From Apostichopus japonicus (taxonomy: Eukaryota; Echinodermata; Holothuroidea; Aspidochirotida; Stichopodidae): a stretch of DNA of 64,000 nt. Under the pieces are notes generated by a model. That model saw nothing but the letters and a program-made list of their open reading frames with translations. It was not told where the DNA came from and ran no database searches. The position numbers and the translations under genes were made by a program. The stretch covers positions 1,875,984 through 1,939,983 of the forward strand of contig NC_092564.1 in assembly GCF_037975245.1 (NCBI RefSeq), given 5' to 3'. This document shows positions 3,168 to 57,200 of this stretch, piece by piece; the stretch's first letter is position 1, and each line of letters begins with the position of its first letter.

Positions 3168-6100
3168 CTAACATGTCTACTTGTCGTTCTTGTTACCAAA
3201 GCTCACGCTGAGTTGATTAGTTCAGTAGGTTGCTGATTTTGTTTCCAAATACTTTACTAGGACTGTGTTCATATTTTGCTCATTAAGTGTGTGACGTTCG
3301 GAGGGGAGAGCTGATATAAATTCTTTGGGTCCATTCCCCTTCATCCTCCCCGACTGGATGTTCGGTGCTGACATTTAAATGTAACATCATTATTAACGTA
3401 CAGGCATATCTGTAGGCTCTACAAATGATGAAACATATGAAAAAGGCGTCCTTAAATTTACTTCAATTGTGCAAACTGCGTAAAGACAAAAGTAAACTTT
3501 TCTAAATTTGACGTTCAGTTTGATTATAGTCAAACTTATGAATAGTATAGCTATAGAATTTAATATCAAATCGTGTCAAAGAAATTCCAGTATGAGCAAA
3601 ATGGCATTGCACGAAGAAAGACAAATAAAGATAAATAATCAAATTGTGCCTTGTTTGCTCAATGGTGGATAGTGTAAACGGCCCTAATTCTAAACAGTGA
3701 TGAAAAAACCCACTTGTCTTTGAATGTTTAGAATGACAACTCTTTTCCAGAGACGCGCAATGAACTCTTTTATTATACTGGGAGGTAGGGGGACTAAGAT
3801 GATGTCGTTCAGTGGATGGGGTCTAATTGGACGGGTGTCCGTTCGCTTTTGAGAAGTTTTGGTAAAATGGAAGGTGTTTAGATCCAAAATGGTGCTATAG
3901 TTGGCAACTTTTGAGACGATTTTTCGACCGTTTAGGTTGTACCGCCGTATATAAATGTAAGACTGAACACTCTTATCAGGGAATGGCGTATGATAAATTT
4001 ATACTTTTTACAAAATCCAGTGAGCATATCCACTCGATGTAAGTTATATATGTCACTTGTCACACCTCACACACTGCAATAATTGTCCCTTTAAGTCATT
4101 ACGGTAGCCTACTTATTGTCCTCTCAATGATTGAAATCTACAGTCTTAGAAGTTATGAAAATGTAATATGTAAATTGGAAGTCAATGAATATTGCAGGGT
4201 AAATGGTTCCATTTCGTGACAATATTATCTTCTTCCAGCTGTAGTTTCACTCACTAAGTGTAACAACAACAAAAAAGCCTTGTCAGACGGTTAAACAATG
4301 TAATGCCAAAACTTGTTATTGATCCATAGGTACTGCTCGATAGTTTGGTGTTTTTGTATATGAGCGTTTGATATATTTATCACTGTGTTCGTTTCCTGAT
4401 AAAATATTAGCGTCTACAAACGATTAACTGCCGAAAATTGGATTTGACAGCAAAATATAGCCTTATTTAATCCCTTCGTTGAAACTTGGACGTTAAAATA
4501 GTTGTTTATATCGGGGATGATTTGCAAGGGGAGGGGTGGGGACTGGGAAGGATAAAGGAGAGGAAGATCCAGACGGTATATTAATCTTTGGAACGAGCTG
4601 CCTCCCGGAATTTGTATGATCACGGACTTCACCTCCTTCAAATCACACCTGAAAAATGCATCTCTTTCAAGAGCACTATACAGATGGTTTCTAGGGTTTT
4701 TTAGATTTTATGATGTTCTGTCGTGTTGGTTTTACGGTTCTAACTTCAATTGCATTTTTCACTTTTTAGCATTCAAATTGTAGATTTTGTACTCAATCTG
4801 TTTTATCGCTTTACTCTTCACCATTGCTTTTATTAGTTTTTCGATCTCATTTTCCTGTAAATATCTGTAGATGGTATATGTATTTACTGTTTTTTGTAGT
4901 TACTGTTTTATGTCATTGTATTTTCTAGATTGTTTGTAAAGCGCATAGATGCATCGCGCGTAGTGCGCTATATAAGATTTTATTTATATTACATATTATA
5001 ACTGGAATATACCATCTTATTGCGCATATTTACAGGGTTGTCAAAGAGGTGCAGTTGGACCTCAGGGAGACAAAGGGAACATCGGTCCAACTGGCGATCC
5101 GGGTGATGGAGAGTTAGTAGAGGACATAAACTGGAGACAGTGTGCTTGGTACAGTGCTAATGGGAATGACTACGATACGAACATATATGTGAGTATACAA
5201 TATTATGGTTGACAGTACAATACTATAGTTGACAGTGTGCTTGGTACACTGCTATTGGAAATGACTATATACAGACATATATGTGAGTGTACAATACTAT
5301 GGTTGACAGTACAATACTATAGTTGACAGTGTGCTTGGTACACTGCTATTGGGAATGACTATGATATACGGACATATATGTGAGTATACAAAACTATGGT
5401 TGACAGTACACTACTATATAGTTGACAGTGTGATTGGAACTGTGCTAATAGGAATGACTACGATACAGACATATATGTATGTATGTATTTTAGATCCTCC
5501 TGCAAGCAGGAACTCGCGTATGTATATGTAAGTATACAATACTCATATGTAAGTATACAATACTTATAGTTGTTTTTTATGGACTGAAAGGAACAGAACG
5601 AAAATGACAAGTTAGTAGTCTGGCCGTATGTTTTTGAGAGGCAGTAATAATTTCTTGAGGTCGGCGAGACGGGACACCGTCGTCTCAGTTTCCTCATATT
5701 CATAACTATAACATCTCTATTTACTTTCACAGGACTGTGTTTTTCAGAAACAGTACAGTGATACTGCCCTGTGGGTGTACTATGGGGGTAATTTAAGGCT
5801 CTATGGGTGCAGCGGTTGCTGTAAGAGGTGGTATATAACTTTCAATGGAAATGAATGCAGCTCACCGACTGTGATTGATGCCGTTGTTTACCAAGCAAAT
5901 ACAAACAATATGAATCTTCATCGACACAGGAGCTTTGAAGGTAAAATTCAAATAACGTGTTTCGTACTCACTGAAAAGTTCAGATGCAGAAGGCGCGGGT
6001 AGGTGGGTGTGAGGGTGCCACCCATCCCATTTTCAACCCCACACTCTCCCCCCCCCCCCTAATAAATAATGAAAGTATTTATTAGCAAAACCTTGTGTGT

Positions 6101-7100: not shown

Positions 7101-7284
7101 TGAAGGCGCACCCCTACCATACCCCTATTATGCTTCCCCTTTATCAATTACCCTTCTTTCATAGTGGAAATTTCTGCTATCGTTGCATGGCTGATTTAAT
7201 GAGGTTTGGTCTTATTTGGGTACAAAAACCAACGTTACTATGTTAATTTTGTATCATTGCATCCAAATCATGTAATATTCACAC

Positions 7285-7515
7285 ATAATTGGACACTTAG
7301 TAAAACACGTCCAACATTGCTCGTTTTCTCAGATAATGGAATTAATTGGGAGTTTCATGAGTTCTCCAATGTTCGCCTACTGTCACTGCTCCTTCCTGCA
7401 TTGCACTAATACATATAAATAACAAACTTAGTATAACACGTCCACCTTTGCTCCTGTTTTCACAGCTAATGGAATAATTGGGAGTTTCATGAGGTCTCCA
7501 ATGCCACACCATTTA
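7285..7515. repeat. Imperfect tandem duplication downstream of CTHRC1
   Basis: ACTTAGTAAAACACGTCC near 7298 recurs as ACTTAGTATAACACGTCC near 7427, followed in both by GAGTTTCATGAG and TCTCCAATG, a period of about 130 bp. It may be transcribed as CTHRC1 3' UTR. Confidence 0.7.
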
Positions 7516-7568
7516 AAAATGTGCTTGTTAGGTTCACTTCAGATGTTCAGTTTTCACTTTGTAAGAAA

Positions 7569-7574
7569 AATAAA
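7569..7574 (+). terminator. Candidate CTHRC1 polyadenylation signal
   Basis: An AATAAA hexamer lies 469 bp after the CTHRC1 stop. Such hexamers occur by chance in AT-rich DNA and no clear GU-rich element follows, so this is only a candidate. Confidence 0.3.
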
Positions 7575-8099
7575 TAACACATCATTTATTTACAGGTTAA
7601 ACATGTAAAATACTTAAGGATTATGCAGTAAATGCAAAGGAGAAGTGGTTTTTAAATATCCCAACCGGTATGTCTTACCTATGTTGTCTTCCTGTATGTA
7701 TTCTAAAAATGAGGGAGAACAAACAATTGGAACTACTAACGATTGCCAAAATTTGATTTATCAATTATTTTTTGTTTGAAGATAAATTTAAGAAACATGA
7801 CAAAACTGTCTTTTTTGCTAATTGTTCTCATTTTTTAGTCTTCGTTGTGTTGTTTTTGCAGTTTTAACTCTTATATTATATTTAATATTTAGCTTTTCGT
7901 CTGTGTGCTACTTTTCTGTACTTTTAGATAAGTATTATTATCTCTATATTGTTTACTTCTTTTCTGTTTGTATTTGACCTTTTGTTTGTACAGCAGCTTA
8001 GAGCATTTATATTTTATTGGATAAGGCCCTTTTAAAGTTACCAATATTATTTTTGTAAGTTATTTAGCGAAAGTTTGAAATTAAAAAGCAAACAACCAA

Positions 8100-9892: not shown

Positions 9893-10106
9893 TCAAACTG
9901 CTGCGACTCCTCCAAAGATTTTATAAACCATGGACTTCAAATTTTGCTCTGGAGTGTACTCAGCTGCCAAGATGGCATTCATTGCACAGATGGTATCGTT
10001 GACTGACCTGCACCTTAACCAGATTCTGCCATTCATGCCTACTGTCACCTCCAGTGGGATTTTCTTGCCCAGCACTCTCAGAAGAGAACAATCTGGTGAT
10101 AAGATT
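9893..10106 (-). CDS. EXOSC3: EXOSC3 exon 4 (terminal)
   Basis: It completes the split Lys codon, then reads [17 protein letters not shown] and the KH loop GMNGRIW, ending GGVAAV with TGA at 9895-9893. The acceptor is TATGTTGCAG. Confidence 0.95.
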
Positions 10107-30200: not shown

Positions 30201-33200
30201 ATGTAGCCCCTATATACTGCACCCTGTATACAGCATAGCCCCCTATATACTGCACCATGTGTACAGTGTAGCCCCCTATATACTGCACCAAGTATACAAT
30301 GTAGCCCCCTATATACTGTACTGCACCATTTATACAATGTAGCCCCTATATACTGCACCATTTATACAATGTAGCCCCTATATACTGCACCCTGTATACA
30401 GCATAGCCCCCTATATACTGCACCATGTGTACAGTGTAGCCCCCTATATACTGCACCAAGTATACAATGTAGCCCCCTATATACTGCACCATTTATACAA
30501 TGTAGCCCCTATATACTGCACCCTGTATACAGCGTAGCCCCCTATATACTGCACCCTGTATACAGCGTAGCCCCCTATATACTGCACCATGTATACAGCG
30601 TAGCCCCCTATATACTGCACCCTGTATACAGCGTAGCCCCCTATATACTGCACCCTGTATACAGCATAGCCCCCTATATACTGCACCATGTATACAGCGT
30701 AGCCCCTTGTATACTGCACCCTGTATACAGCACAGCCCCCTATATACTGCACCATTTATACAATGTAGCCCCTATATACTGCACCCTTTATACAGCGTAG
30801 CCCCCTATATACTGCACCCTGTATACAGCGTAGCCCCCTATATACTGCACCCTATATACAGCGTAGCCCCCTATATACTGCACCCTGTATACAGCGTAGC
30901 CCCCTATATACTGCACCCTGTATACAGCGTAGCCCCCTATATACTGCACCCTGTATACAGCGTAGCCCCCTATATACTGCACCCTGTATACAGCATAGCC
31001 CCCTATATACTGCACCCTGTATACAGCGTAGCCCCCTATATACTGCACCCTGTATACAGCGTAGCCCCCTATATACTGCACCCTGTATACAGCATAGCCC
31101 CCTATATACTGCACCATGTATACAGCGTAGCCCCTTGTATACTGCACCCTGTATACAGCACAGCCCCCTATATACTGCACCCTTTATACTGCATAGCCCC
31201 CTATATACTGCACCCTATATACAGCATAGCCCCCTGTATAGTGCACAATTGTATACAATGTTTAACATTTGTGTGTTTTCTATTTCCAGTGATTTGCTAC
31301 ATGCTGTAATTGAAGATCAACTTGCCCTGTTCCTCGTTCTTCCCAATCGCATAGCCGTACCCCTGATGGATACCACCAAACTCAGCGACCTCAAGAATCC
31401 AATGCCTTCGGTAAAATTAATTTAAACAAATCATTTTCTATCATTCGTTCCTGTTTGACCTCTTAGACCTACTTCTGAGATGAGATGATAGATCTCAAAC
31501 CAGTCAGCCTACTCACCACAACCAAGTTTTATCTCAAAATCTTTTGTTTCAATTCACAAATAATTGATTAAAATCAAACCTCATGTTAACAAGTTTAGAT
31601 CATTCAGGGCTGATTTGGAAAGCATGATCACTTTGGGTGGTTGGATGGGTGATTTCAAAGAGGAGGGGGGCGGGAGGTGTAGTACAGTAGTAACATTTTT
31701 GGAGAATTGGGTGCTGGAAAGCAAAGGAGAAGCAAAATGCACTGGTCATTCTCACTGCAGTGTTTTTTTTTTTTTTAATATTTACTTTGTTGCCAGTAGA
31801 ACTTACAGGTAGTCTGAAGTATCTTGTAAGCAAATAGGCTAAGTCACTCTTTTTTTTTTATGATAAGAGCTAATTTGTTATTATTACGCTTGCTGTTCTG
31901 TGCATGTGCAATTTAAAGTTAGCAAATTTGTAATGACTTCTTTCATTCCTCTCTTAGGGTGTTCTGCACATCAGTGTCCTTGAAGCCAAAAACTTAGTCA
32001 GGAAAGACATTGGTCTCTTGAAGAAGGGTAAATCCGATCCTTATGCTGTGGTTTCAGGTTAGTATTCAAACTGTTCAATACCATATAAAATACAAATAAA
32101 TACAAATTAATTGCAACAAAATACAATGCAATAAAATACAAAACAATAAAATACAAATAAATTACAATAAGATACAAATAAATTGCAAAAAATACAATAC
32201 AATAAAATACAAATAAATTACAATAAGATACAAATAAATTACAAAAAATACAATACAAATAAATACAAATTAATTGCAACAAAATACAATGCAATAAAAT
32301 ACAAAACAATAAAATACAAATAAATTACAATAAGATACAAATAAATTACAATAAGATACAAATAAATTACAAAAAATACAATACAAATAAAATACAAATA
32401 AATTACAACAAAATACAATGCAATAAAATATAATACAAATCAAATAACTTACAATAAAATACAAATAACTTACAATAAGATACAATACAAATAAATTACA
32501 AAAAATACAATATACAATTAAATCCCCCCCCCCCTCATAAATACAATGCAATACAATGATTTGTTACAAATGTTGCTTAATCCAACAGATGGTTACTGGA
32601 ATGTAAATAATGAAAATCCACTGTTAAATATTAATGATCTATATCTGGTTGAAATTATTGGAAAGAGCTGTAAGGCCTTGAGGAGGTTTTCACTAGGTAA
32701 AAAGTTACCCTTCACTAGATAGCTGATAAGTTCAGTTTTCCATACCGAGACCATGAAGTATTTAGCAGCGAGAGCTCAAAAGTTTTAGTCAGTAGAATCC
32801 AAAACTTTTCACTCACCGGTAAATTGATTTCATACTCAAATCTTTGAAGATATGAAGTAGTTTAAGGTTGCCTCATCTTTCCCATTTTATGTACCACATG
32901 TACTTCATAAATCCATTTAAAAATCTAAGCTACAAAAACATTATTTTGTAAAATATCTCAGTTCTCCAAATTTGGGTGGTTTTCTGGGTAAAATCCAGTG
33001 GATTTTGTTAATTACCAGTAGAAAAAAAAAGGCACTGGCAATTTTCTGTCAGTAGACAATAAGAACTCAAAATCATGGTAAAGTCTATTAACAATAGTCA
33101 GTCCAAGAGTGAGCATGATATCAGTATCTAACATAAGCCCTGTATAACTGCTTATTATCACCCAAGTATTATTAAACTACTCTCAAAAGCCTTGTACAGT

Positions 33201-36200: not shown

Positions 36201-39200
36201 TAAGTTCTTGTAAACTTATCCCACCATGCTTCAATTTTGTTGAATATAGATTTATATTTTCTGTGAAGGTGATCCAATCTATTCTTGTGATATTGCCGAA
36301 TCAAATCAACGTCACAACAATCACATCAGAAACATGTGCCATTATGAAAGGAATTCATTTATCTCTCTATACAGTATGTCCTATAAAGCTGACCTGCATT
36401 GCCTACGTCACTAAAACCCGGTGTAATTTGAAAGTATCAACTTTCCGAAATTTCGACGTTACCGTGACAGCTTTCACAGCTCTGCCTCTGTTTTGATGAA
36501 TTTGAGTGATATATTATCATATTTTTTTACTAATCCTGACCATTCATAGTGAGTTTAATCAGATTGTCAAGCAGCGATTTTTATTGGTTTCTTTCTCTAG
36601 TCTCAGTCTAGATATTTTCCACTTATCCAAGTTGGGCCAGTTGGATTCGGTGAGATACAAAACTATCGGCTCTCATTTGCAGTGTGTCTGTCTTCGTCCT
36701 ATTCTATTTTGTCTTTTCCTTCCGTCACCATTCTGTCATGCTACAATGTCCAGCACGTTAATCTAACTTGGAAACTTTTGATGGTTGCTTGCACCGGCTT
36801 TTATTTTTTAATTTCATTTTATGGTTTTTGTTTGTCTGTATGTTTATATCCTTGTTTATTTTCTTAGGTAAAACTGCAAATATTATTTTTCTTGCTCTCT
36901 TGCAAGCTTGAGTTGGATCTCTTTTCTTACTGCATGAAAAGCATGTGAATGATTTTGTTCTTACAGGAAGTTAAAATTTAATCTTTCAATGATGCCTCAA
37001 GGCATTGAATTTGAAAGACTCATTAATAGATAAAACTATCAAAAATAAAATAAAAAAGAACTTATAACTTGTTTCATTATGGTTCCTATTTAAATATCTG
37101 CCAAGGCTGTTGGATGTTTTGTTAAAACATAGTTGCCAAGACTGAAGTGAACACTAGCATCTCATCAAAACAAGATACAGTACCTGTTTCTTTTACAATT
37201 CACTGGAACTGGTTTTGTCATCATTGAGTACTTTATACTGCATGCACATACAGTCAAAGTGGGATACTTGCTTGCATATCAAAGTCAGATGAGTGGAGGA
37301 GGGTTGTGGGCTGGGGGGGGGGGGGGGGGCGGGGGGTAACAAAGTGGTTGGATGGGTGTTGTGATGGAAGTTGTGAGTTCATTAAATAGAAGAAGTGTAC
37401 AGTATCTGTGCTGCTCACCAGGATTATCCTTAATATACAATACTATACATATCAGCATGCATCATTTTATTTCAAAAAAAGTTTCAAACAAACATTTTCA
37501 TACTTGTTGTTGTTAAGCAAAGCATTCATATCTACCATTTGAACCATTAGTCTACCGTAAGAAGTAATATCGAATCAAAATGTAATATTCACTTGAAGAA
37601 AATTTCAGGAAGGAATTCATGTGAGAAACTGAAAAAGCAACTTGTATGTATGTTAAGGATGTGTGCCTTAATAATTGTTTGTTTGAATTTTGTTTCAAGT
37701 TTGAGAGGGCTTTTATCCTTTTTAAAGATATTAGTTGCATATAATACAAAGAAGTGACCAGGACTTGAAATTAATTGCTGAATAGTGTAATGTGCATTGC
37801 ATTGCTTTTTTTTACTTTAATAATAGATAGTCTTGCTAGATATGAATGTTGCAATAATAACTAGATTTGAAGAGTTTACCATTCCCTCTTCAGCCCCCTT
37901 CTACAAGAGCTGAATGAAGTGTTATCTATCTGTTGGAGGTACCTTTCACCAAACTAGCAGCTCGCGTAACGAGAAAATAAAACAGAAACTAACAGAAGCT
38001 AAAGATTTTTAGACAGCGAAGGATGCAAAGTAGAAATAGATGTCTGTTTTGCGCTCTCTAGCGTTTTAATTGGATGCTTGCTGCAGTAACTCTTAATTCA
38101 CTTTTTTCTACTTCAGTATTCTTAGTATGAAGCTGCTACTTTACCTATTATTCAGACTTATACTAACATTTATAAACTGCTAGTAGTACCCTGGAGGGAT
38201 ATCACATTCTGATAGGGCGAATGGGGCGGGGGGGGGGAGGAGGCAGGGAAGAGGCTACATTCTCAAGGAATGGGAGGGAAACTGCTGCAAGTAATTGCAT
38301 TTCACATGAAATAATTAGGCTTGAAAGATGTCTGAAATATAGACGTACAAGGCATGTTAAAAGCTAGAAGAGGTAGTGGAGATCATACCCAACATTGAGG
38401 TGGTTAAGATTAACGATGGTCGGGGAATCACTTTGCTTCCAAGAATGAGAGATGTAGACGGAGCCTTGAAACAGATGCAAGGGTTTGACACTTTATCATG
38501 TGTGAAAAAGTTTGTGTTAGATTTGTGTTGGTGGGTACATGTGCACAGTTTTCGAGCTAACAACATTTGTAAACTGAACATGGTCTCACTTTGAGAAGAA
38601 AACATGGCACATATAAATTATTAGAGGTATGATAATTGTAGAATTCCATCCAGACCCTATTGTCCAGATGCTATAGCCTGGTTTGAAGATTTATGGACAC
38701 AGTTTAATCTTTGCAAACATTTTTCATTTGACAACATTGACATCTTCAATTTTTTTTTTCAAGATATGAATATCATATTATTATTATTTCTTTTTAAATA
38801 TATCACTTGCATACACTCCTTTTAGGAGTATAGTCAACCATTCATACAAAAAGATTTTATCAGAAATGACACAAAAATTTGTAACTTCGATATGAAAGTT
38901 GTACCTTAATCATTGAAAGACACAATATGAACAATAAACAAAATGAGTTTATTCCTTGTGTTTTTTAATTGTTCTTACCTGAACACAGCAGCACAATGAC
39001 TCAGTTTAAGAATCAACATGTTTTCTTTCTATTTTTTCCTCATCTAGTGGCTGCCCCTCGAGGATATTGAACATGGCGATCTCCACCTCCATCTCAACTG
39101 GCAGGTCTTGAGTGATCAAAGAAGTGACCTCATGCAGGTAAATGACCTCACAAATGACCTCATGCAGGTAATTGACCCATGCAGGAAATGACCTCATGCA

Positions 39201-42200
39201 GGTAAATTACCTCATGCAGGTAAAAGAACTCATGCAGGTAAATTACCTCACACAGGTTAATGAACTCATGTCGGTAAACCAAACAGAAAGGAGGGTATCC
39301 ACGGGGTAGATGAAGCCATTTTATAGAATTCTGAACTTTAAATAAACAAAATCATCGACAGAAACGACTAAAAGAAAAAAAATCAGAGGATTTTTCAAAT
39401 TTAAGATGGACTATAACACTATTACAAAACACTACAAAACAACACTTGACCATTGGCATATATGTATCTGATTTATGGGTAGAGAGAAAGTAACATTTGA
39501 AACATACCAAAAATTGTTTAACAGTATACATTTAACTCAAGGGTGTAGGAACCGGGGGGGGGGGGCTGGGGGGTGCCAGCCCCCCCCAGTGAAAAATGTG
39601 AAGGGGCGGAAGTATCATTCCGCCCCCCCGCTTCGCAAGTCAGAAAACCCCTTTTTCATTTCCAAATGAGAAAAAAATCTCATTTGGAGCACCAAATTGC
39701 ATCTAAGGCCAGGTGAAAATACAAAATTAAGTTTACAAAATGGAGTGGGTATTGAAGTGTGCTATATTGCACCAAATTGCATCTGAGGCCACCTGGAAAT
39801 GCTCCAAAGGGGAGGGGGACACCCTCCCCCTTAGACCCCCCTGGCCGGCCATCAGTCTTCATCCCCCCACTCAAAAGTACCTTCCTACGCCACTGATTTA
39901 ACTAGAACATTACCTTCAGTCTCAGTCATAGCAGATATCTATGTCTTACAGTTGAAACTAAGCTGCACGTTAAACCCCCACCCCTCCAACCAGGAATTTT
40001 GTAATACATATCAAAACTTTGCAGCATTGGTGAGCAGATAAAAAGCGGTAAATTACATTTTCTACAAAACAAAACAAAATTGTATTTTAATTTTTTTATA
40101 CAACTCTCATTTTAGTTGTAAACAATAAAAACGACAACCAACATGTATCATCTTGCTTTGTAAACACAAAAATAATTCAAATACATATAATCCCATGCAA
40201 TGGGAAAGTATATCTTTTAGTAATGTTCAATGTTAATCCCCAATAAGTTAACCCAAGGCTCCCGATATCGGTCCCAATCATTTTTCATATTAGATCTAAA
40301 AACGAATTTCTGTAAGCTAAAGTAACTTTTCAAAAAGTCAAGCAACCCAAAAACAGATTTTCCACAAGTTGACGAGAAAACTACTGTACGGTCAGTATTG
40401 ATAGCAACCAATTAGATTTATGCTTCTATTTCTCCAGTGAGTTCTACTGCAGACTTAGCAGACAGGGATTCAATCTATTTTCAGGGATTTTAGTAATTGA
40501 TGTTCTTTCCTTTTTATCTCCAATCAGGAGTCCTCGGTAGATGAATGTGTAACAGAATCACCATTCTCTTCAGCTGTTTTGGTTGTCACTCTCGATTCCG
40601 CCAAGGACTTACCGGTAAGACAAAAATAACCAAAAAAACTTACTTTCCATTTCACTTAAGTGGATTTAAAAACTTGATATGTCAATGTTCACTTTTCATC
40701 TTGCTGTGGCCTCATTAAATTTATATTTTTGATGAAAATGTTATTACCGTATATTCAAATATGGGCAATTAGTGAGAAAGGTGATGTGACAAGTGTCACA
40801 AGTTGTTTATTTTGTCATTTTGTACAGCAACCTTTATGTCTTACTTTATGGCTTGTTCATGTCTTATGTCATAGATATCATGTCTTAGTCATGTTCTTAG
40901 TTGTGTACTAATGTCTTATTTATGTACTTTATGTCTTATGCTATCCTGATGAAAGCATGAATGAATGTCAGTTACTACTTAAACTACTATTATTATTGCT
41001 AAACTACAAGTAGTTTTATAACTGTCATGTTGCTTGCCCTACTGGCATTGTTGCATAGACCTTCACGTCTAGCATTGCTTGTACAACCACTGTACAAATA
41101 CAACAGGAATGTTCCTATTTGAACCCAAGGAGAGGGGGGGGGTAGGGGGTGGTCCTTCAGGGAAAATGCCTGTTAACAAAAGAACAGTAGGGAGAACAAT
41201 GTTTTGAAAAGAATGTTTATCTTTGACGAAGGGATATGGGTGCTATGGGGAGTTTATGTTGCGTTGACTGTACTTTAGCCATTTACTAATGTAATCGCTG
41301 AAAGAATACTTACCATAAATAGAGAGAAGAGGAGGAGAGGCAGAAAATGAACAAAAATGAGGGTGGGAGGGGATTGCCAGGAAGTTCTAAAGAGAGGAGA
41401 GAGGGTGAGTTTATCAGCTAGGGGGATAGGGAGGGGAAGGCTGTAAAAGTCAAAACAGAGGAGTAAGGTTATTCTTATGGTGAGGAGTGGACTTTGGTGA
41501 AGAAGAAAAGGAAAAATGACATAACATAAATGACAAGCAAGGACCCAAATGAAAAGCATTAATTTAATAAGAACAAGCAAGAACTTAATGTTTGATTTTA
41601 ATTGCTCTTTATCTTATTAGAAGACCTACTTTGAACATGTAGAGGAAATTGTAATTTCCACATGTAAAAGAAATTTCAACTTGTGCAAAAAGGAGTTGCA
41701 AATTAAAGCCTCTTCTCTAGTTGCTTTTTTTTTACCAAAAATATAATATTTAAGGTGGAAGATGAGAAGGTTATAAGGATGCATTGAGAAGTAACCTAAA
41801 TACTGTTATTGTTAACTACTTCTAGTCCTGTTGAGTTGATTTTCATATTGTACTCCTATTTCGGGAACTATTGTAATTGCTACGTCATCAAGGTCATTAC
41901 TCCAACTACTGCTATTTGTACTAGACTGTTTACTTTGACAGACACTCCTGCCAGTTACCATCCCAAATAGTTTTTAAGCAAAGATAAATACCAGTTTGTA
42001 CGTAACCATAGATAAGTACCAATTTACTTCGCTCCTCGCTTACCTGTCTCCTCACAACCTTAGCACCTCATTCTACCGTGCCTATAAAGTCCTGGTAAAT
42101 AAATAACACTGTGCGCCCTCTATGACCGGACCCCCCTTCCGGTCCCTCCTCCTTTTTCATTCTACCATTCCAAGTGCCTACACGCATATTTTTCTTGTGG

Positions 42201-45200
42201 ATAGTTTCCTTGGAAAAGTGTCTTGGTTTTCTTCGACGATCGCCGGAAGTTTTTTAGCTTCGGATCTTTAGAAGTTTGACAGTCCTTTCCTGACCGATAA
42301 GTATCCTTTTTGTCAAAGAGGGAGGGTTTTGGGGACTGTTTTCGTAGTGCGTTTCCTCCTCGGGTTGGTTTGCGGCGGGGTTAGCAGTTCCGCGAAACTG
42401 CCTAGGTTCCCGCCCTATTCCTCCCCACGCTAAAGCGTGTTGTTGTTATTGTGTTTTCTTAGCTTGTTTACTAGCTTTCTTCCCCCCCAATTAGTTTCTC
42501 TTGTCCCCCTTTTGGGGATTCATATTGCTCACTTATATTCACTCTTTTTCGTATGTATTTCTCGCTCTCTCATTTTTGTTTCAGCTCGCATTTTCATGTT
42601 AGGCCACCCCGTAGCGTTACCTTGTTTACCGTTGCTAGGTTACGCTACGCTCCACCTAAGCCTAATTCCCTCCCTAGTTCTCCCTTCTTACGTTAAGCTT
42701 CTATTGTTGTTCATTTATCACTAAGAAGTAATCTTCCTTAATCCGGTTATTCAGCATGTCACGCAATCCATTGAAGTGCATCAACTGCTCGATGTTTCGC
42801 CCAGGCAGAGCCTGGGACGAACACGACCTTTGTCCAAAATGCAGATCCTGCACTCGACGAGACCCCTGCCTGGTGTGTATTAAGTTTACACCAGCTCAGT
42901 GGCAGGACATCGACCTGTGGCTTGAGGGCTTACGTAGCAAGCTCCAGGGAAGGCTGGACTCGATCCCGAGCGCAATCGGGGCGCCGGAGGTTCCAGGAAT
43001 AACGGGAGACAGAGAGGAGGAGGGAGTAGTAGAGAGAGAGGTGGAGGAGGAGAGTGGCCAGGAGAGGGCCGAAGGAGAGAAAGAGGTAGAGAGAGAGGAA
43101 AGAGAAAGAGAAAGAATTCCCCTAACGGCCCCGGCTACGTCCGGATCAGTTACGGCCAGAGGGAAGGGCAGGAGCAAAGGCAAGGCTCCTGCCAAGAAAA
43201 GACCTCCAAAGCAGAGGCACAGCTCGGCCGGGCTGGAGACTCCGTCTCAGTCCGGGCCGCAGCTAAACAGACCCACAGAGCGCGGCCCCCCGGCCGTGGG
43301 AGGCTCGGGTCCTAAAGAGAGAGCAACCGAGGGGACGCGGAGACGGAGCCGGTCCCGTTCCAGGGAGCCGGACAGGGAGCCGGAGAGGCGGGTTCCGACG
43401 GAGATCCCGGCCCGAGAAAGTAGGGAGAGAGAGTCCTCCCGCCGACCCAGAAGGGAGAGATCGGGGTCGCATACAAGATCCCCAAGACGTAGAGAGAGGA
43501 AGAGATACTCTCCAATCTCCGACGAGTCCTCGGACTCTTCCGACGATGGATACAGAAGATCCAAGAGGAAGCGCCGGTCCATGAGACGGCGTCAGGAAGA
43601 GGAACCAGCTTGGCTTTCCAAACTCACCGGCCTGCTACGGCCCCTGCTGGAGCAAAGGACGTCCACGGTAGCCGACGTGGCACCGGGCCCTACCAGCCCC
43701 GTATCGACCATGGCCCCGCAACCGGCCCCGGACCCGGACGCTCTGGATTGCAGAGCGTCGGTGAATCTTTCCGGCTTGGAGGACGAAGGGGAGCCCATAG
43801 ATCCAGATCCTCTCGACTACGATCCTATGGAGGACAGCTTTGGTCACAATTACGAACCGGAGGAAGCACCCGTGACAGGAGGAGCCCTCCCACAGGAGCT
43901 AATAACACGGGCGGCAGACATATTCAGATGACACCTGGGGTTCGAGGAACCCGAGACGCAACCGCAGAAGGCGGGCCGGGTATCAAAATTGACGGCGACC
44001 GGCGAAGCGTCATATAAGCCCAAAACTACCATACCAGTAGACGCAACCTGTTATGACAGATTTGAGGCCATTGCCAATAAGACCAAGTGGACGGCCTTCC
44101 CGGCCAGGGCAGATAGAGCGGTCAGGGTACCTGACGAGGCCTGGAAGGATCTATTTAGATGCCCAACCATCCCCCAGGAGGCCAAGGAGAGATTAAAAGC
44201 CGAACAAGGGGCCTCATCCACACACGTGTTCAAGACCCCGGACCAGAGGAAGCTAGAAGAGCTTTTGGTAGAGGTGGACATGGCAGCCCGTTCGGGCATG
44301 AAGTTCGCATCGGTACTAATGCTATCAGCCGAAGTCCTCATGCGACACCATCAACAGCTCCCTGAGGACAGCAGCCAAGTATCCAGGGACGAAGCGGGCC
44401 AGCTCCTCCTGCTGCTGGGCCCCCTCGTCAGACTCGCGTACGATCAATTTGCAAGGGTCGCTACCAGGTCCGTAAAGGCCCGTAGACAAAACATCGTCTC
44501 CGCCATCCATTGGCCTTCGACGGAGGCGAAGGACAGAATGCTGGAACTACCAATCCTCGGGGAGGACCTTTTTGCGGGCTGCTTCCAAAAGAAACTGCAG
44601 GAAGAGGTGGCCCGAAGGGAGACTCTGGCCAAATCAGAATTCCGACCCCCACCTACCCAGAGAACCAGACCCTTCCGCCCGAGGGAGAGCAGAGCACCTA
44701 GGGGAACGAGAGCAGCACCCGCCAAATCTATGAGCAGAGGAGCTCTCAGAGGCCGAAGCCGGGGGGCAGCCTTCCGTCCGACCCGCCCCTGGGCCCCCAG
44801 AGGAGGCAGAGGCTCCACGTCGACCAGACGGGACAGTGACCGCTCCTCCAATCGACCAGCGTTCGCCGCCCAGCCCTAGGGGTGCCCACCTCACCGCGGC
44901 CATTCCGCCGGTGGGGGGGAGACTAACAAACTTCTCCCAGCAATGGGAATTTATTGGCGGGGACAAGTGGGTGTTGGACACAGTCAAACACGGGTACAAA
45001 ATAGAATTCTCCTCCAGCCCACCTTTCGGGGGCGGAGGAAGGCAGACACTCACACCCACGGACCCCGTCAAACGCTTAGCCCTAGAAGGGGAAATTCTGG
45101 CCCTGCTGGCCAAGCAGGCAATTACAAGAGTTCCGGAAGAGACGGGACCACTCTTCCGGTCCTCCTTTTTTCTGACCAAAAAACGGGACGGCACCTGGCG

Positions 45201-48200
45201 TCCCATTCTAAACCTAAAACCCCTGAACACAAAACACATCAGACCAAAACACTTCCGTATGGAGACCTTAAACTTAATATTACCCCTACTCAGAAAGGGC
45301 ATGTGGGCGGCGACCGTAGACTTACGGGACGCCTACCTGCACATCTTGATACACAAAGAACACCGACGATTCCTAGCGTTCCGGTACGCAGAACAAGACT
45401 ACCAGTTCCGGGCGCTCCCATTCGGCCTAGCCACGGCTCCCAGAACCTTCACGAGAGTCGCGGGAGCAGTAGTCGCCTACCTCAGAAAAAGAGGGGTCAC
45501 CCTCTACGTATATCTAGACGACTGGTTGGTAGTAGGGAACAGCCTATCGGAAGCAACCAACAACGTCCACAAAACGCTCCAGACCCTTCAAGAACTGGGC
45601 TGGATCGTGAACCAGAAGAAATCACGGCTATCACCCTCCCAGACGATCCAGTTCCTCGGGGCCATACTGGACTTCACCACCGGGGTAGCCCGACCCTCAG
45701 AAGAAAGAGTCGCGGCAGTCAAGGCGACCACACAACAGATCTTGGCACACCGGGGGTCACCAACGGGGACATGGCTCCGGGCCCTGGGACTCATGGCCAG
45801 CCTCGTCGATATAGTGAGACTGTGCAGGCTACACATGCGACCTCTGCAACTGCACCTGCTGAGGTCCGCAGACCCTACAGACCCAGACAAAACAACGCTC
45901 ATCTACAGGTCAGAGGAGGTCACACAACACTTTCGATGGTGGCTCGACCCAAACAACTGGAGTTCAGGGGTACCCTTTGCGATACAGCTACCAATGACAT
46001 CGATAACGACGGACGCGTCACTGTCCGGATGGGGAGCTCACTGGAGCAATCGCACAGCATGGGGGACGTGGTCCCAAACAGAAACATCTCTCCACATCAA
46101 CATCCTGGAGATGATGGCGGTCAAAAGAGCCCTGGAAGCTTTCAACGACCACGTACAGGGAACGATAACCACAATCTTCACCGACAACACGACAGTGGTG
46201 GCCTACATCAATCGGCAGGGGGGCACCCGCTCAGAGAGACTGTGCCGACTCGCGTGGGAGGTGATAACAGCGGCCGAGGACTCCGGCACGATCCTACGGG
46301 CTTCCCACATCGCAGGCAAGCTCAACGTGATGGCGGACGCCCTATACAGGGGGCATATAGACCCCAACGAATGGTCTCTGGAACAGGAGACTTGCGACAG
46401 AATCTTTTCGATCTTCGGCAGGCCCACGATAGACCTGTTCGCAACACACAAGAACAACAAACTCCAGACCTTCTGTTCCAGACGATTCCACCCCCTGGCC
46501 TACCACACGGACGCAATGTCCCTCTCCTGGGACCACATGGATGCGTACATCTTCCCGCCGCTATGTATGATCGGACAAGTCCTCAGGAAAATTCGGAACT
46601 CCAAGGGCAGGTTCACACTAATAGCCCCGTTCTGGCCTCGCAGACCCTGGTTCGCCGAGATCCCCCAACTCCTCATGGACGTCCCAGTGAGTCTACCGGA
46701 CAAGCCCCACCTACTGTCCCAGAGACAGGGAACTCTCTCGCACCCAGACATCAAGGGGTTACAATTAGTTGCCTGGAGGCTGTCCGGTCTTCCCTACGAC
46801 AGAGAGGCTTTTCAGAAGCAGCTGCCGCGATGGCAGCCGACGCTAGAAGGGGAACAACCGCAGCGACTTACGATTCCCGTCTGCGGAAGTTCGACCAATG
46901 GTGCCGACCGAGACAGATACTGCTGCCTGCTGCCTCTGTGACACAGATAGCCGAGTTCCTCCTCTCACTCTTTGGAGAAGGGAAACAAGTCTCCACTATC
47001 AGGAATTACAGGTCGGCCATCGCTGCCATCCACCAGGGCTTCCCAGATGGCTCCACACTGAGCAATAACCCGTACATTGCACAACTCATCAAAGGCATGG
47101 CGAATCGTCGCCCACAGATCAGACGGCTGGCCCCCTCCTGGGGACTCTCAGCAGTGTTACATGCCCTGGCAGGACCACCATACGAACCAATGGCTAACGC
47201 CTCCCTGGCTGCCCTCACAAAAAAGACACTCTTCCTCGTCGCAGTTGCGTCAGCAAGAAGGAGGAGTTGCCTCCACGCCCTATCCACCAAGCAGAATCAC
47301 ATCAGATTTGAGGGCCACGGGGTGAGGATGGTTCCAGACCCGTCATTTATTGCAAAGAACCAGACCTTGACCTTCTTGCCAGGAGACATTTTCATCCCGG
47401 AAATTAAGACCATGTCATCAGTAGCCGAGGACAAACGATGGTGTCCAGTCAGGGCACTGAAGTGGTACCTGAACAAGACAGAGAAGTTAAGACAATCAAC
47501 TTCTCTCTTCATCATACCACGACCACCCTACGCAGCGGCCTCCAAAGACACTCTATCCAGGTGGCTAGTAGAGATCATACGCCCGTTCACATCGGGGACC
47601 TCCCGACCAAGGGCTCACGACGTCAGAGGGGTCGCGGCCTCTACAGCCCTATTCGCCGGCATCCCGGTAGAGGACATACTCAAAGCAGCAGCGTGGAAAA
47701 CTCCAACTACGTTCGTCGCCTGCTACTTGACCGACACTTTACACGCCGAAGCGGCATTTGGTAGCGCGGTGATGCGAGGTCCGGTGGGTAACAGGTCCCA
47801 CCCCTCGGGCCTCCCACCATCGGGCAGTGCCACTCGGTGCTAAGGTTGTGAGGAGACAGGTAAGCGAGGAGCGAAGTAAATATTCCAAAACTTACTGGTT
47901 TGGATATTTACGAGTGACGAGCTTACCTGTCTCCATTCCCGCCGCCCTCCCCCGAGAGGGTGGTGGGACACAGCCGGACGGAGGAGCGGTCGCTCGACTT
48001 GACTCATGACTCCGAGCTTCACACCAGATAGACAGAACCACCATCCACCATAGAGCCATCGACTATGTCTATCGGTGAGTGTACCTATGTGTTTCCGTAT
48101 GCGTTTGCGTACATAGTCTTCCACTTACGTTCTCACCTAAGTTGATCTAAGGGTAACAAGTGGCGGACCGTAAATCTTTAGGCTCCTTGTTAGTGTAAGG

Positions 48201-51200
48201 GGTAGTTCCGCCTGCAGGGTTCAGGAGAGTGTCCCCCCTTCCCGCTGCGCCGGGGAGGGTTACACTCCCCCCTGCTTAGAAGGCGTCAGTGATTTTTTTG
48301 TTAGGGGTTCACTTTGGGAAGTTAACTCGACGGGGGTCGTTGGGGGTGGCCAGACCTTGCCACCCCCACTCCCGTGTCCGTGAGGCCACTCTTTAGGAAT
48401 GGTCTCATGAGAAAGGAGGAGGGACCGGAAGGGGGGTCCGGTCATAGAGGGCGCACAGTGTTATTTATTTACCAGGACTTTATAGGCACGGTAGAATGAG
48501 GTGCTAAGGTTGTGAGGAGACAGGTAAGCTCGTCACTCGTAAATATCCAAACCAGTAAGTTTTGGAATGTTTGTACGTAACCATGGATAAGTACCAGTTT
48601 CTACGTAACCATGGATAAGTACCAGTTTGTACGTAACCATGGATGTGCCAAACGTAACAGAAAACAACATATCCATTTACATTGTTCATTGTGTTAATAC
48701 ATAATGGAGAAACTTTTCTTTTTATGCACAGCTGGTACAGTATCAAGACATTGTCTATACTCTTGTATGTATCCCAAATTGAACATTCACCATGTCACTT
48801 ATCAAATGCAGCAAGTATGTCAATATCATGATAGGGTCAATTATTGTTAATTCATGAAGTATTCACATCTCACATACTGTATCATATCCCATATTCACAG
48901 TTCTTTGCAAACAGGAATCTGTGGAACAAAGCTTGTTTGTGTTCATAAGCTGTCATTTTGATTTAATACTGCAAACAAACACGAGAGAGCAATCCAAGGA
49001 GTTGCATATATCATCTTCTTCATGGCTTTACTCTTGTCATCCTAATTTCGCTAAACAGAATGACATCCTCTCACACAGTTTGAACTTGAACGGACTTATG
49101 GTGTGTAGCAGTTTGCGGCACAACTTGCAGACAATTTAGGCCAAGTTCACCTTTGAAATAAAAAACCAAGTTTTTGGTTTCTTTACCCTTACCTATGACA
49201 TCATCAGCCACACAGGCACAAGTTCACTTGGTCAGGCACCTACCCACCAAGTTTGATCTTGATCGGACTTACAGTGTAGGAGTTCCCAACACACTTTTTT
49301 TGTACAGTTTAGGGGAATTTTACCTTTGAGTTCAATTTACTTTTCACTCAGAACCAAAACAATTAAATCTGTCCTACTTTTAAACTCGTCTCATCATTCT
49401 CTACATGCTGACAAGCAGATTATGGCTGAAAAATGCAGGCACAATTTTACATGGTCAGGCACCTACTGTACACACCAAGTTTGAACTTGACCGGACTTAA
49501 CTGTACGGTCTAGGAGGAGTTCGCATCACACACAAACTCGCACGCTCACACACTTCCTCAAATTACTGATATGGGGTGAAGTACAATATCTCATCCCTGT
49601 ACATTACATGGAGGGAGATAAAATAATAAGCGCTGAAGATAAAGTTAGTTTTTGTGAGAAAAGATAAACAACCAGTTTCCTTTGAGGTATTTTTTCACAA
49701 CATGTTATGCAGACACAATGTCAATAATACTCAAAAATACTCTCTTATAAATGAGACATGGTTGATTAGAAGTGCTAAAACTTCAATATTCAAAGCCTTA
49801 CCTAATAAATGGCATGATCTTAACATCCTGTTTATACCATTCTTAGGTATATATAGTATAGTCATGCTTAAGTTGACATTGACAGTATTATAATGTAAAA
49901 TGTTGCATTGTTTCAAAAGCCAAAGAATCATTGAAACTCCATCATAGGTAGTAATACATTTATCAAGCTAGAACCGCAACTCAGAATCATTACACTCTGT
50001 GGTTTGAAAATATTCATCCATTATAGAAGCGTTGGAACATGTTTGTTTGCAGTCAGGGTGTGACTAAACTGCATTCTGTAGTCCAATTCAAGCAGATGTT
50101 TGTACATAAAAAGGATACAGTAAAGATGAAAACTAATAGATGTTTTATGTGGGGGAGGGGGGTGGATTTGAGTGAGTAACATGAGGTTGAAAAACTTCTT
50201 GTGAAGCAGCATTCTCCATTAGCAGATCTTATACCCCCTCTCCAGTAGTGGGGAAGAATTTTATGCCCCCTCTCCATTAGAGGGGAAGATCTTATACCCT
50301 CTCTCCATTAGAGGGGAAGATCTTATACCCCCTCTCCATTAGATGGGAGATATTATAGACTTATATCCCCTCTCCATTAAAGGGGAAGATATTATACCCC
50401 CTCTCCATTAGAGGGGAAGATCTTATAGACTTATACCCCCTCTCCATTAGAGGTGAAGATCTTGCACCCCCTCTCCATTAGAGGGGAAGATCTTATAGAT
50501 GTATTCCCCAATTTCCCCCTCTCCATTAAAGGGGAAGATCTTATCCCCCTCTCCATTAAAGGGGAAGATCTTATACCCCCTCTCCATTAAAGGGGAAGAT
50601 CTTATACCCCCTCTCCATTAAAGGGGAAGATCTTGTTCCCCCTCTCCTTCAGAGGGGAAGATCTTATAGACTTATACCCCCTCTCCATTAAAGGGGAAGA
50701 TCTTATCCCCCTCTCCATTAGAGGGGAAGATCTTATCCCCATCTCCATTAAAGGGGAAGATCTTATCCCCCTCTCCATTAAAGGGGAAGATCTTATACCC
50801 CCTCTCCATTAAAGGGGAAGATCTTATACCCCTCTCCATTAGAGGGGAAGATCTTGTTCCCCCTCTCCATTAGAGGGGAAGATCTTTTAGACTTATACCC
50901 CCTCTCCATTAAAGGGGAAGATCTTATACCCCTCTCCATTAGAGGGGAAGATCTTATAGCCCTCCAACACCAAAACCACTTTTCAAGAACAAATTCAGTT
51001 CGTTTGTGTTTGTGTGGATTTCAAATGCCTCCCGAGTAAAAGTTTGAACTTCAGGAGTTTGATTGAAACATTTAAAAAGATGCTATGTGAATCTCTTCTA
51101 GCTGGTACTCTTTGATAATCTCCTCAAGTCATAATTTGGAATATAACAATTTTTCATTGTTAAAAAAACAGGCCCATGCTTAAGCTTCTACACTAAATTG

Positions 51201-54200
51201 CTGCATTTCATGTGAATTTTAACATATCATTTGAAATTAAAATATGCATTTAGTAACTTTATATTTGTCACTGCCATTGGTGTTATTATAAATTTTGATA
51301 AATTCTGACGTACAGGTTGTATGTCCGTTCACTGCAATGGTGATATATATCGTTGCATTTTAACATCAACATATCATTTGGTACCATTTTCATATGGGGT
51401 TTTGTATCAATTGTGTAATTTTTGTTCTAAAACATCATCAATATGACAGAAAAATGGCATTTCAGTCCCTGCTTTGTTTACAAATGAAAAACATTTAAGA
51501 TGTATTTGTAAGTTTTTGCAATAGAGTTTGAGAAATTAACACCACAAATGCAGTGGATGTTAGTCAATACCTAGTTTGCTTGGTTTTACTTAAATTTGCA
51601 CAAAGCCTTAAAATCGTTAAATGTATCAACTGTCTCTATGGTAGGTTTATTCATTTCGTTTACAGATATGAATAATATATTGATGAAACGATCAGAATGG
51701 TCAGTTGGAATAGGCCACATTATATTTTAACTTTAAGATAACCAAGTTTCTTGTATTTAATAATTTTTGCTTTATCAAGATATTGTTGAGTCGAAATTGT
51801 CAGGAGGACTTCAAAACTTTAAGAGAGTGGTGGATAGTGGTTTTTAGTTGTACCATATAAATTGTAAAACATACAAATTATAAGTATACAGTAGTTATCG
51901 TATACCCAGCAGCTTGGTTATTAAACCTGGCTGTAAGCACAACTATAGTGCAGTTCAGTCACTGGAACACCGTTACAGCAAACTTCTTTTTTCTTATGAC
52001 AAAAATTCAAAATGACTTAATTAGAATTCTAGGTATAAGGTAATGTTGAGTTTTGATTCCCTAATGGTTATTGCTGCCATTTACAGTTAATAAGGAACAT
52101 TCTATCAAAGTCAGTTGTCATTGCAGATAGTTAACTACCCCAGTAGGTAGTGCTCTCAAAAACTGTCAATTGGGCTAAGACAATGCCTGAGAAAAGTAAT
52201 TTAAGAACTTCTAGAGAATTTGATGTTGCAAGTTGAAGCTTTTTCAGTTTTTTCGGACATTGTGTGTGGGTCTCACAGGGGTCTTTTCAGTTGATTATCT
52301 TTGAGACAGATATTTTCATGTTCAAATGTTGTTTGTTTCTTTCTTTTACAGATTGGCCGTAAAGCTTCGGTCATGCCCAGCCCTTATTGTAAACTCTCTG
52401 TCGGTCAGACAAATTGGAAGAGCCAGGTAAATGTAAATATTAATGTAAATTGATAATCAACATTAAATAAAATATAATGATCCTTGCATACAAGAGAAGT
52501 ACCTCCTCCACAAAGAAGAAGAAGTCCCCATGGGTAAGGATTTATGTAAAAAAAAAATTGTAATAATAAATAATAAAAATATTTTTAATTCAGTTAAAAA
52601 CTTTGCAAATGAATGTTAAAATAGGCGGAGATTCATATCGAACTATTCTTGTGTTACATGTTCTTTTTGCAGAAATAATTATGTTTCTATAGTCTTATGA
52701 TAATTTATTTGGATAGGAATCTAATATGACAAACTATGATAAGAGGAGATGCCATTAATGATCAGTAATAGCACATTGTAATCGATTTATATTTCAGTGT
52801 TCGTGACAAAGTAGCTTGTTATGTTCATATGTTTATCTCATAGCTTAATTGCATTGGAAGCCATAGTCTCTAGCAAGCCGAACTTAGGCGAAAGACTGTG
52901 TCATTAGAACTTAATAGTCCAAGAAACTTCATGTGTGACTGAGTAACTATGAGTACACTCATTGTCTAACTAGATTATCTTTTCTGATCTTGTTCTGTAT
53001 TCTCTCTTTACAGATTCAGAATGCAAATAATGCTCCAGTCTGGGAAGAGATGTTTCATTTCTTTGTTCAGAAACCACAGATACAAGCTCTAGATATAGAG
53101 GTGAAATGTTTTCCATATTCTATAGAAAGAGAAATACTTACTTCAAACCCAAATATGAATTTATATTTTGGATTAAGTTTCAGTAGCTCAGTTTATATGC
53201 TGTAAGGATGATTTGATAAATTAGGGCTCCAATTAGGGCTCCAATTTGTGAGAGTCCTGTTCCCTGTTTAGCCTCTGTATCAGTAAGACATTTTCTTCTG
53301 TGTAATACTTAACAAAGCAACAAAGGCAAAAGCCAAAATATGTTTAATCAGAACAGATACATTATTACTGAAAGCTGTTAATTATAAACCCTCATAAATT
53401 GCTATTTTGGCAAAAGCAAAGGTCAAGTTGCTTGTGGGATTCTGCACATCTCCCTGGCAGCTGGTTTGGTTTATTGACACAGTAAGACCCAACAAACAGA
53501 GCATGTGAATCTGTTAGTTTATTGGTAGGGAGTAAAGTCAACAGGTCAGGGGTCATTAAACTGCTTCACATACTCTCATTGTGTACATTAGTGACAACTG
53601 AGGAGATTATAACATTAAAACTCATTGTCATTACAAATTGGTCGACCTCGGTAATGTGCACAGGATTTCAAAGTTGACGGGGTAGGTGGTGGTGGGGGTG
53701 GCGGGCAATTCTAGATTCCCCATGGCTGATTTAGGTAGTGTCATGATACATATAAGGGCATCCTGGGACCAGGTGGGGTGGTTTAAATCTCCCCCAACCG
53801 AGTGATTTATGCCCAGCTCAAAATGGAAGTGGCGGAATGCCCTAACCACGTCCTTTGTGCATGCTGCTGGTTGACTTGACTCTCCAAACCTGTCTCACCA
53901 TTTGGTAATTTGATGACCAGAAGTGTGTGTTTAAATTGTGTCACCCCAGCAAACTGCTTGTGTGCCATTTCAACCCCAGGGTTTTCTTTATTTATCAGGT
54001 CTTTGATGGTAAGAAGGACATTGCGATTGGGAATTTGTCTGTCCCAATTAAGAGGCTGATTGACCAACCAGGAATGAACTTGGAACAACCCTTCAAGTTG
54101 AATAACTCTGGACCACACAGCCAATTGATCCTCAAACTCTGTCTCAGGGTGAGTGCATTATACTGCATATTCAGTGTATAAAGCTCATGGTGCTGCATAT

Positions 54201-57200
54201 TCAGTGTTTGAAGTAGAAACACACTGTAAGAAATCAAACTCTGTCTCAGGGTGAGTGCATTGTACTGCATATTCAGTGTATAAAGCTCAGGGTGCTGCAT
54301 ATTCAGTATTTGAAGTAGAAACACACTGTAAGAAATCAAACTCTGTCTCAGGGTGAGTGCATTGAACTGCATATTCAGTGTATAAAGCTCAGGGTGAGTG
54401 CATTTACTGCATATTCAGTGTAATAAGCTCAGGATGCTGCATATTCTGTGTATGAATTAGAACCACATATTAAGGAATCATACTGAACCCTATCTATGAT
54501 AGAACTACCTATGACACAACCTCCATGTCCATGTGTATCATGTGCTTTGATAACTGAACTGAACGGTGAGTTGAAAGTAGTGTTACTTAATCTAGTGAAA
54601 CACAGACCACCTTATATACAAGGTAAGTAATGGACTAAGGCTTGGCATAGATGCACATTCCTGTTGGCTGATGGAACCATATTACATACAGATGAATCAA
54701 GTTTAGGTATTACATCAACGTGTAACAGACAGATGAAACAAGTTGAGGTTTTACATAACCATATAATACACAGATGAAACAAGGTTAGGTATTACACAAC
54801 CATATAATAGACACATGAAACAAGCTTAGCTATTACATAACCTACAATACACAGATAAAACAAGGTTAGGCATTATCTATCCATATAATAGACAGATGAA
54901 ACAAGGTTAGGTGTTACATATCCATATAATACTCAGATGAAACAAGCTTAGCTACTACATAACCATATAACAGATAGATGAAACAAGGTTCGGTATTACA
55001 TAACCATATAACAGACAGATGGAACAATGTTAGGTATTACATAACCATATACACATGAAACAAGGTTAGGCATTATCTATCCATATAATAGACATATGAA
55101 ACAAGGTTAGGTGTTACATATCCATATAATACTCAGATGAAACAATGTTAGGTATTACATAACCATATAATAGAAGATGAAACAAGGTTCGGTATTACAT
55201 AACCATATAATACACAGATAAAACAAGGTTATGTATTACATAACCATATAACACACAGATGAAACAAGCTTAGCTACTACATAACCATATAACAGATAGA
55301 TGAAGCAAGGTTCGGTATTACATAACCATATAACAGACAGATGGAACAAGCTTAGCTATTACATAATTATAACCATACAGTGTTCTTATTCCCATCACAT
55401 ATCTATGGTATACACTGTACAACAGTTGCTATTAAGTTAAATATCCATCATGTTGCCCCATTGAAAGTGGTTTCATAGCATTTGCCAGAAAATGCTGACA
55501 AAGACCTAGCTTCTTCCCCCTATTTTCGGTCATATCAATTCTTGCTTTATTGGCATCACCACAGGGATGTAAGTCTTTCGTATTTTTACGGAAATCCGTT
55601 TTTTTTTTAATTCCAATAAAGTTCCACAAAATTGTACAAATATCAAAGACACAACGCGTCAAAAATGCCTGGCCTGTTGCAGCAAGCTAACTTCAATTTT
55701 CACTCATCGATCAACCAAAATACCATTTCGTGTTACACATCGCATTGCACTGTACAACATTGTGTGTGCCATGTGAACATATTTGCGTACGTGCGAACTT
55801 CAAATCGCTATAGCTCATTTCTGTCGTTGAAAGACCTTGCCTAATTCACGTTGATTCGTAACTGCTGGTGCTCGACATAAGTTTCGGAATTAACGCTTGT
55901 GATATTTGTGAGCGGCTAAATCTACGGGATACGCATATGATAGTCGATATTCATGATCGCTTTCAAATGAGAGACTGTTTTTTATTCCGGATTTCGCTGC
56001 GACGTATTCGTTACTTGGAGCTAGCCTAACATAACGATAGTGTGTAAGTAGTCAGAACTAGTGGTAGGATGTGTTAGCGCTAATACTTTTGAGCTAGCCT
56101 AACATAACGATAGTGCGTAAGTATTCAGAGCTAGGAGGAGGATGTGTTAAAACGGCATTCCCCCGGTTTCTCCGAATAGTTTTCCGTTTTTTGGGGGGGG
56201 CTGCACTTACATCCCTATCACCAGGAGTGTACGACTAACTGCATCTTTTCCTTTGTTATGACCTGCTCTGATTGGATTCTTGTTTCATTTTATCGACAGG
56301 CTTTGAAACCGACAACCAGTATTGTGGCAACAGAAACTGACCTAAAGGAGCTACTGGTATGGATCTTAAGATATTAATTGATTGAGATATAGAGGCTGAT
56401 AATTATCACTTTTGACTCATTCAAGCATGGAAACATCTCTGTTTCAGGCCCTATAGAAATTGAGACTGAATTATGAAGCTTGCAAAATCTGTATTTCTAT
56501 CCCAAGTTAGCTATGCAACACTTTGAAATGAGGAAACAATTTAAAATTTAAGTTCTAATTTAAAAATTTTTAATTTGTTTTTAATACTATCCCTTAATTT
56601 AGCTTTCAGAGGAACCCAGTACAGATAAAACAACGGAGACGCCTCCTGAGAAAGCTTTGATTGAAGAGGCAGGGAGTGAACACAAGGAGGAAGATGTTAC
56701 ATCATCATCATCATCTCCAGTCCGTAACACTCAGACACCCCCTGTGAATGGTATCAATTCCCCTCCCACACCAACTGGAACAGAGCTCAGGAAACGAGTA
56801 ACTGACAAATCCAACAGGTTTGATGCAACTGTTTATGCACAGAATACTTAATACTTCTCATTCTGTATAAACACAGTAACGCTGAGTAGCATCAAATATA
56901 TTAGTAGCTTGCCTGTAGAAGCATTTATACCATTGGTAGCAGTCTGTCACTCTTTGCTTTTAAGATGCGGGTCCAAAATTGTCACGGTGATGGGCTGGTA
57001 AGGCAATGCCCGCTGCTTGTGACTGTGATTTGGTTAGAAGCAATCCTTGATAGCATTGGTATTGAATACAGCACTGGCCACTGAAACGAATTTGACATAA
57101 ATGGACCAGGGATGGTCACTAAATGATCTTGTGGGCCTCACGAAAAAGTTTGTACCCACAAGACTCAAGGATGTACCTTACCCTGTAAAATGGGAATCTT

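Follow-up and report, generated by a model that had tools for sequence, protein, structure and literature searches.

Tandem arrays spanning exon-intron borders recur across the Apostichopus japonicus genome and are not specific to donor sites

The window analysed here, a 64,000-nt stretch of the A. japonicus genome (contig NC_092564.1, positions 1,875,984 to 1,939,983, forward strand), carries exons of a gene that we take to be CTHRC1-like and of an E-Syt-like gene, all on the plus strand. The original prediction described three tandem duplications with one edge in an exon and the other in the following intron, and TRF recovers all three, at the donors at 5189, 39138 and 54149, with units that do differ in size (94, 18 and 102 nt). 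The CTHRC1-like exon at 5036..5188, called from its open frame and splice scores, ends at a GTGAGT donor at 5189 and is followed by an exon at 5733..5940 whose phase agrees with it. The array at this border (5136..5478; unit of about 94 nt, 3.6 copies, 88% matches) holds the 53 terminal exonic nucleotides plus donor 5189 in its first copy, and copies of the donor lie at +94, +191 and +288, with weaker ones at +339 and +360, every one of them preceded by an in-frame stop.

The exons of the E-Syt-like gene are colinear with extended synaptotagmin-2 in PDB (4p42). One of them (WLPLEDIEHGDLHLHLNWQVLSDQRSDLMQ, 39048..39137) matches this protein weakly when taken alone (7.8 bits), in an order consistent with the remaining exons of the gene, and ends at a GTAAAT donor at 39138, which is spanned by an array at 39125..39278 (unit of 18 nt, 9 copies, 75% matches). 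Six near-copies of the donor are found here between +30 and +136; that at +30 is open and in frame, and the other five come with a stop. A C2 exon of the same gene (...GPHSQLILKLCLR, 53999..54148), which together with its neighbour matches extended synaptotagmin-2 strongly (54.9 bits), ends at a GTGAGT donor at 54149 within an array at 54132..54396 (unit of 102 nt, 2.6 copies, 97% matches), adjoined by an array of a 40-nt subunit that reaches 54433. Copied donors at +102, +204 and +245 all entail a stop.

Annotation of the window is partial: some exons of the E-Syt-like gene were not found, and the 26 internal borders originally counted could not be reproduced, 16 donors and 17 acceptors being supportable. 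A codon model was also tried and set aside, the short exons being beyond its power and transposon frames topping its ranking. Among the supportable exons, border-spanning arrays are present at 3/16 donors and 0/17 acceptors, and random non-exonic positions of the window fall within arrays, any copy counting, in 108/1500 cases (7.2%). At the donor rate of 5.0-5.8% found in the genome sample described below, the probability of at least 3 hits among 16 donors is 0.04-0.06, a figure uncorrected for the choice of a window that shows the pattern. The donor-only distribution seen here is most likely a small-sample effect.

The window contains further repeats. A 33-nt tandem array of 44 copies (29802-31257; TRF), in which several frames are open on both strands, stops about 33 nt upstream of the E-Syt-like exon at 31290. 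A 30-31-nt array lies at 50224-50962, with a 221-nt higher-order repeat in two copies (96%) at 50514-50957. At 42400-48000, a GC-rich insertion (55-57%) inside an E-Syt-like intron carries long frames that resemble reverse transcriptase and recombinase, presumably those of a DIRS-type retrotransposon.

We sampled exon borders elsewhere in the A. japonicus genome using 271 exon matches from four protein families: myosin head (at least 70 matches), kinesin (at least 126), SNF2 (at least 59) and ABC_membrane (at least 52). For myosin and kinesin all 196 matches were fetched (set 1); for SNF2 and ABC_membrane, 60 of 81 regions were drawn at random, leaving out 34 exon matches and retaining 75 of the 109 kept ones (set 2), two SNF2 matches having been removed for their many stops. 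P450 matches (96 among the matches listed), the best of which are long single frames, were not used. Flanks of 500 and 400 nt were taken and splice sites inferred from score and reading frame; 11 donors and 8 acceptors of set 1 were removed for poor splice scores, and 5/75 acceptors of set 2 were unusable. A border hit was defined as a local alignment with a score of at least 16 to a copy on the intron side, covering at least 8 exonic and at least 3 intronic nucleotides, and this gapped test searched the intron side only. Control positions share loci with the tested borders and lack independence.

Border copies were found in these unrelated genes too, which bears out the predicted recurrence as a habit of the genome. 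Under equal geometry, border-spanning copies occur at 15/260 donors (5.8%), 6/258 acceptors (2.3%) and 28/481 matched intron positions (5.8%), whilst a control with reversed targets gave 0/260 donors and 0/258 acceptors (0/518 in all). Donors are thus not above the overall intron background (p = 1.0), contrary to the original view that chance placement at donors is improbable; acceptors lie below it (p = 0.041), and donors and acceptors differ with p = 0.072, the difference of 3.5 points having a 95% interval of 0.05-6.9 by cluster bootstrap. The donor-acceptor difference comes from set 1 (11/185 donors, 3/188 acceptors and 94/1566 intron pseudo-edges in the gapped test; donors versus acceptors p = 0.031) and was not repeated in set 2 (4/75, 3/70 and 28/559, respectively; p = 1.0). 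The duplication test originally proposed, run on the sample with 30-nt words searched in both directions and at least 22/30 identical positions, detected copies at 10/185 donors and 3/188 acceptors, versus 148/1920 random intron positions and 14/588 positions in exon interiors. At a threshold of at least 20/30, the best copy lay on the intron side in 14 of the 16 printed border hits and on the other side in two (donor L032 and acceptor L008, both 21/30).

Curation, made with the result known, involved reading the sequences of 8/15 donor and 6/6 acceptor hits and judging the other 7 donor hits from alignments. Donors L082 and L156 were removed because the HMM match overran a stop into the intron, and acceptor L173 because it is the distal end of the array at donor L172; the donor picker misplaced the site in one or more of the hits retained (L096), where the array still spans the exon end. 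This left 13/260 donors and 5/258 acceptors (p = 0.09). A contiguous TRF array crosses the border in 7/13 curated donors and 5/5 curated acceptors (12/18), so that most of the donor-acceptor contrast is gone when contiguous arrays are counted. The other 6/13 donors (L012, L073, L104, L140, L093 and L151) have spaced copies with no TRF array over the border, and two of these, L073 and L104, are weak hits; not every case is therefore a simple minisatellite. Acceptors bear the same arrays as donors: five were read directly (L041, L112, L088, L145 and L189), including three 124-nt copies at the acceptor of a myosin exon and five 42-nt copies at that of a kinesin exon. The claim that these duplications never touch a 3' splice site thus holds for the 17 supportable acceptors of the window and fails elsewhere. 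In all 18 curated hits the copied exonic part, by ungapped extension, amounts to 11-89 nt and is always shorter than the exon match (89 nt from a 219-nt match at the largest); these partial copies rule out whole-exon duplication and mutually exclusive exons.

An array cannot grow inside an exon, so that a donor can sit only in its first copy, and we therefore also used a stricter null that counts a position only if it belongs to an array's first copy. First-copy rates are 36/1138 for introns (3.2%) and 83/2741 for non-exonic window positions (3.0%), against which the 15/260 donors are 1.8-1.9-fold enriched (p = 0.064 and 0.026, respectively); for the 13/260 curated donors, p = 0.19 and 0.095. 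Depending on curation and control, the excess is 1.6-1.9-fold with p between 0.03 and 0.19. This is the only test that leaves an excess, and it provides the best remaining, if weak, support for a donor-linked reading. The excess could stem from the exonic copy decaying more slowly, since coding constraint would keep border pairs recognisable for longer than intron pairs, raising donors and acceptors alike; the figures above are uncorrected for this. Tandem-repeat cover (period of at least 10) is about 0.09 at 200-395 nt within introns and has no peak at donors in the sampled introns; it drops towards both borders, from 0.083 (60-100 nt) to 0.044 (0-10 nt) beside donors, and from 0.057 to 0.023 over the same distances beside acceptors. 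The splice signal is longer at acceptors, where it includes the branch point and pyrimidine tract, consistent with the wider trough there.

Near-copies of the donor itself are present in 13/15 sampled donor hits, 38 in all (5/38 from the misplaced L096). The full donor motif is intact in many of them, and a stretch of 14 nt is identical in some, yet 37/38 would add an in-frame stop and 1/38 a frame shift if used. The five kept acceptor arrays hold 13 near-copies: 9 entail a stop, and the remaining 4, which all belong to L145, are open and in frame. Given these stops in the extensions, a donor array depends on its exon-proximal donor for a normal mRNA, and four of the acceptor arrays depend on their last acceptor. 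The working site is thus probably the exon-proximal one, with normal splicing kept, judging from reading frames. Exon definition would predict use of both the first donor and the last acceptor, whereas a simple first-come rule would predict the donor case only.

The most extreme array lies in an SNF2-family gene, presumably BTAF1-like, at C19:21,631,012-21,634,653 (its ends being L172 and L173). A pattern search located 81 occurrences of a 44-nt donor unit here, the working donor included, and none elsewhere in the genome; a reversed control pattern had none. The unit consists of the last 31 exonic nucleotides of the exon ending SGTPIQ and the first 13 intronic ones, and the next exon (NNVLELWSLFDFLMPG) begins about 20 nt beyond the array. 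The two ends were read as sequence and the middle is known from pattern matches alone. An intron of about 3.6 kb is thus made up almost entirely of repeats of the 5' splice site with which it begins.

The original prediction knew of no description of the pattern in this animal group; as a kind, it has been described. In Ebner and others (PMC3087553), minisatellite-like duplications of intron-exon borders are reported from amphioxus globin genes and called mirages after work on Adh3; they occur at 5' and 3' borders, seemingly without disturbing regular splicing. This paper and PMC3902484, which adds PGBD5 and troponin C, give as amphioxus mirage loci Adh3, the globins BflGb6 and BflGb9, PGBD5 and troponin C, with reported length polymorphism and undisturbed mRNA. 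The amphioxus mirages and the sea cucumber arrays have in common tandem copies with one exonic and one intronic edge, varied unit lengths, copied AG/GT signals and the involvement of both border types. In our genome sample, too, arrays of at least two copies have a unit lying across the exon-intron border, and both border types carry them. The sea cucumber arrays differ in belonging to another phylum, in including one array with 81 unit occurrences, and in having a frequency figure, about 5% of donors and 2% of acceptors among the 271 exon matches. Intronic minisatellites in general resemble them in the length of the unit, in copy number and in being arranged head to tail; what sets the border arrays apart is an outermost copy that carries coding sequence and the working splice site. 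A literature search limited to open papers found, among the papers listed, no description of border minisatellites in echinoderms or in A. japonicus.

Taken together, this analysis indicates that border arrays recur across the genome and are neither donor-specific nor new in kind. We consider it probable that they are mirages, that is, ordinary intronic minisatellites that overlap a border and are tolerated through exon-proximal splice choice. A founding tandem duplication would happen to include an exon-intron border, copy number would then grow into the intron, and the array would persist because the site nearest the exon, be it the first donor or the last acceptor, remains the one that is spliced, as under exon definition. 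Acceptor hits may be fewer because the adjacent intron sequence, with its branch point and pyrimidine tract, is more needed. In these introns tandem repeats are abundant, covering about 9% of positions, and neither kind of sampled border exceeds the rate for introns as a whole.

The original prediction had offered two causes, a repair or R-loop-linked process and selection for back-up donors. A duplication-prone process acting at transcribed 5' splice sites, at a rate exceeding that of introns, would fit the donor rate over the first-copy intron rates of 3.0-3.2%, the lead of donors over acceptors, whose interval just excludes zero, and the 3/16 donors of the window; a mild donor excess may indeed exist. 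We nevertheless regard such a process as unlikely, given that donors show no excess over all intron positions, that repeat cover falls rather than peaks near them, that acceptors carry the same arrays (7 donors against 5 acceptors when these are contiguous), that set 2 did not repeat the difference of set 1, and that curation leaves p = 0.09 versus acceptors and 0.095-0.19 versus first-copy introns. Retention of copied donors by selection as back-up or alternative 5' splice sites appears very improbable: the intact motifs and the open, in-frame first copy (+30) of the 39138 array are what it would predict, but 37/38 sampled copies lead into a stop, several copies are recent (96-100% identity), so that motif conservation is expected without selection, and acceptor arrays exist as well.

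Tandem repeats are a common cause of assembly errors, which could make the arrays an assembly or haplotype artefact. This is scarcely credible, as the copies have diverged (75-97% matches in the window arrays, down to 83% in sampled pairs) and the A. japonicus assembly was built from PacBio HiFi reads (PMC10344927). That copied borders are intermediates of intron gain or exon duplication seems to us distinctly improbable. A role in intron gain is proposed for mirages in amphioxus globins (PMC3087553), and in a potato RdRp gene a cross-border tandem duplication provides splice signals, as here, and yields a new intron (PMC4974935); the sea cucumber copies sit within an existing intron and comprise only part of an exon, and no new exon or intron was seen in this one genome. 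Intron gain would in any case be a consequence of the arrays and not compete with their minisatellite origin.

The mirage reading thus puts a simpler account in place of a donor-specific process. Mirages, reported from a few genes of amphioxus, thereby become a feature that recurs in an echinoderm genome, where its frequency has been estimated. Such series of near-identical splice sites constitute a natural test of site choice: the first copy is required in a donor array and the last in an acceptor array. They also show exon sequence leaking into introns, which has been proposed as material from which new introns arise. As a tentative and more doubtful extension, about 1/20 donors and 1/50 acceptors might carry nearby copies of their own border, mostly minisatellites, with the spliceosome choosing among up to 81 near-identical sites; the 1.6-1.9-fold donor excess might be real, through exon-definition tolerance or a mild donor-linked duplication bias; and the habit might be shared by echinoderms and cephalochordates. 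The mitochondrial cox1 of this genome reads AAA as asparagine at positions judged to be conserved, as in the genetic code shared by echinoderms and flatworms. As a separate observation, a 31-kb unplaced contig (C29:14745-31219) holds five cox1 matches with TGA codons, perhaps joined or misassembled mitochondrial copies.
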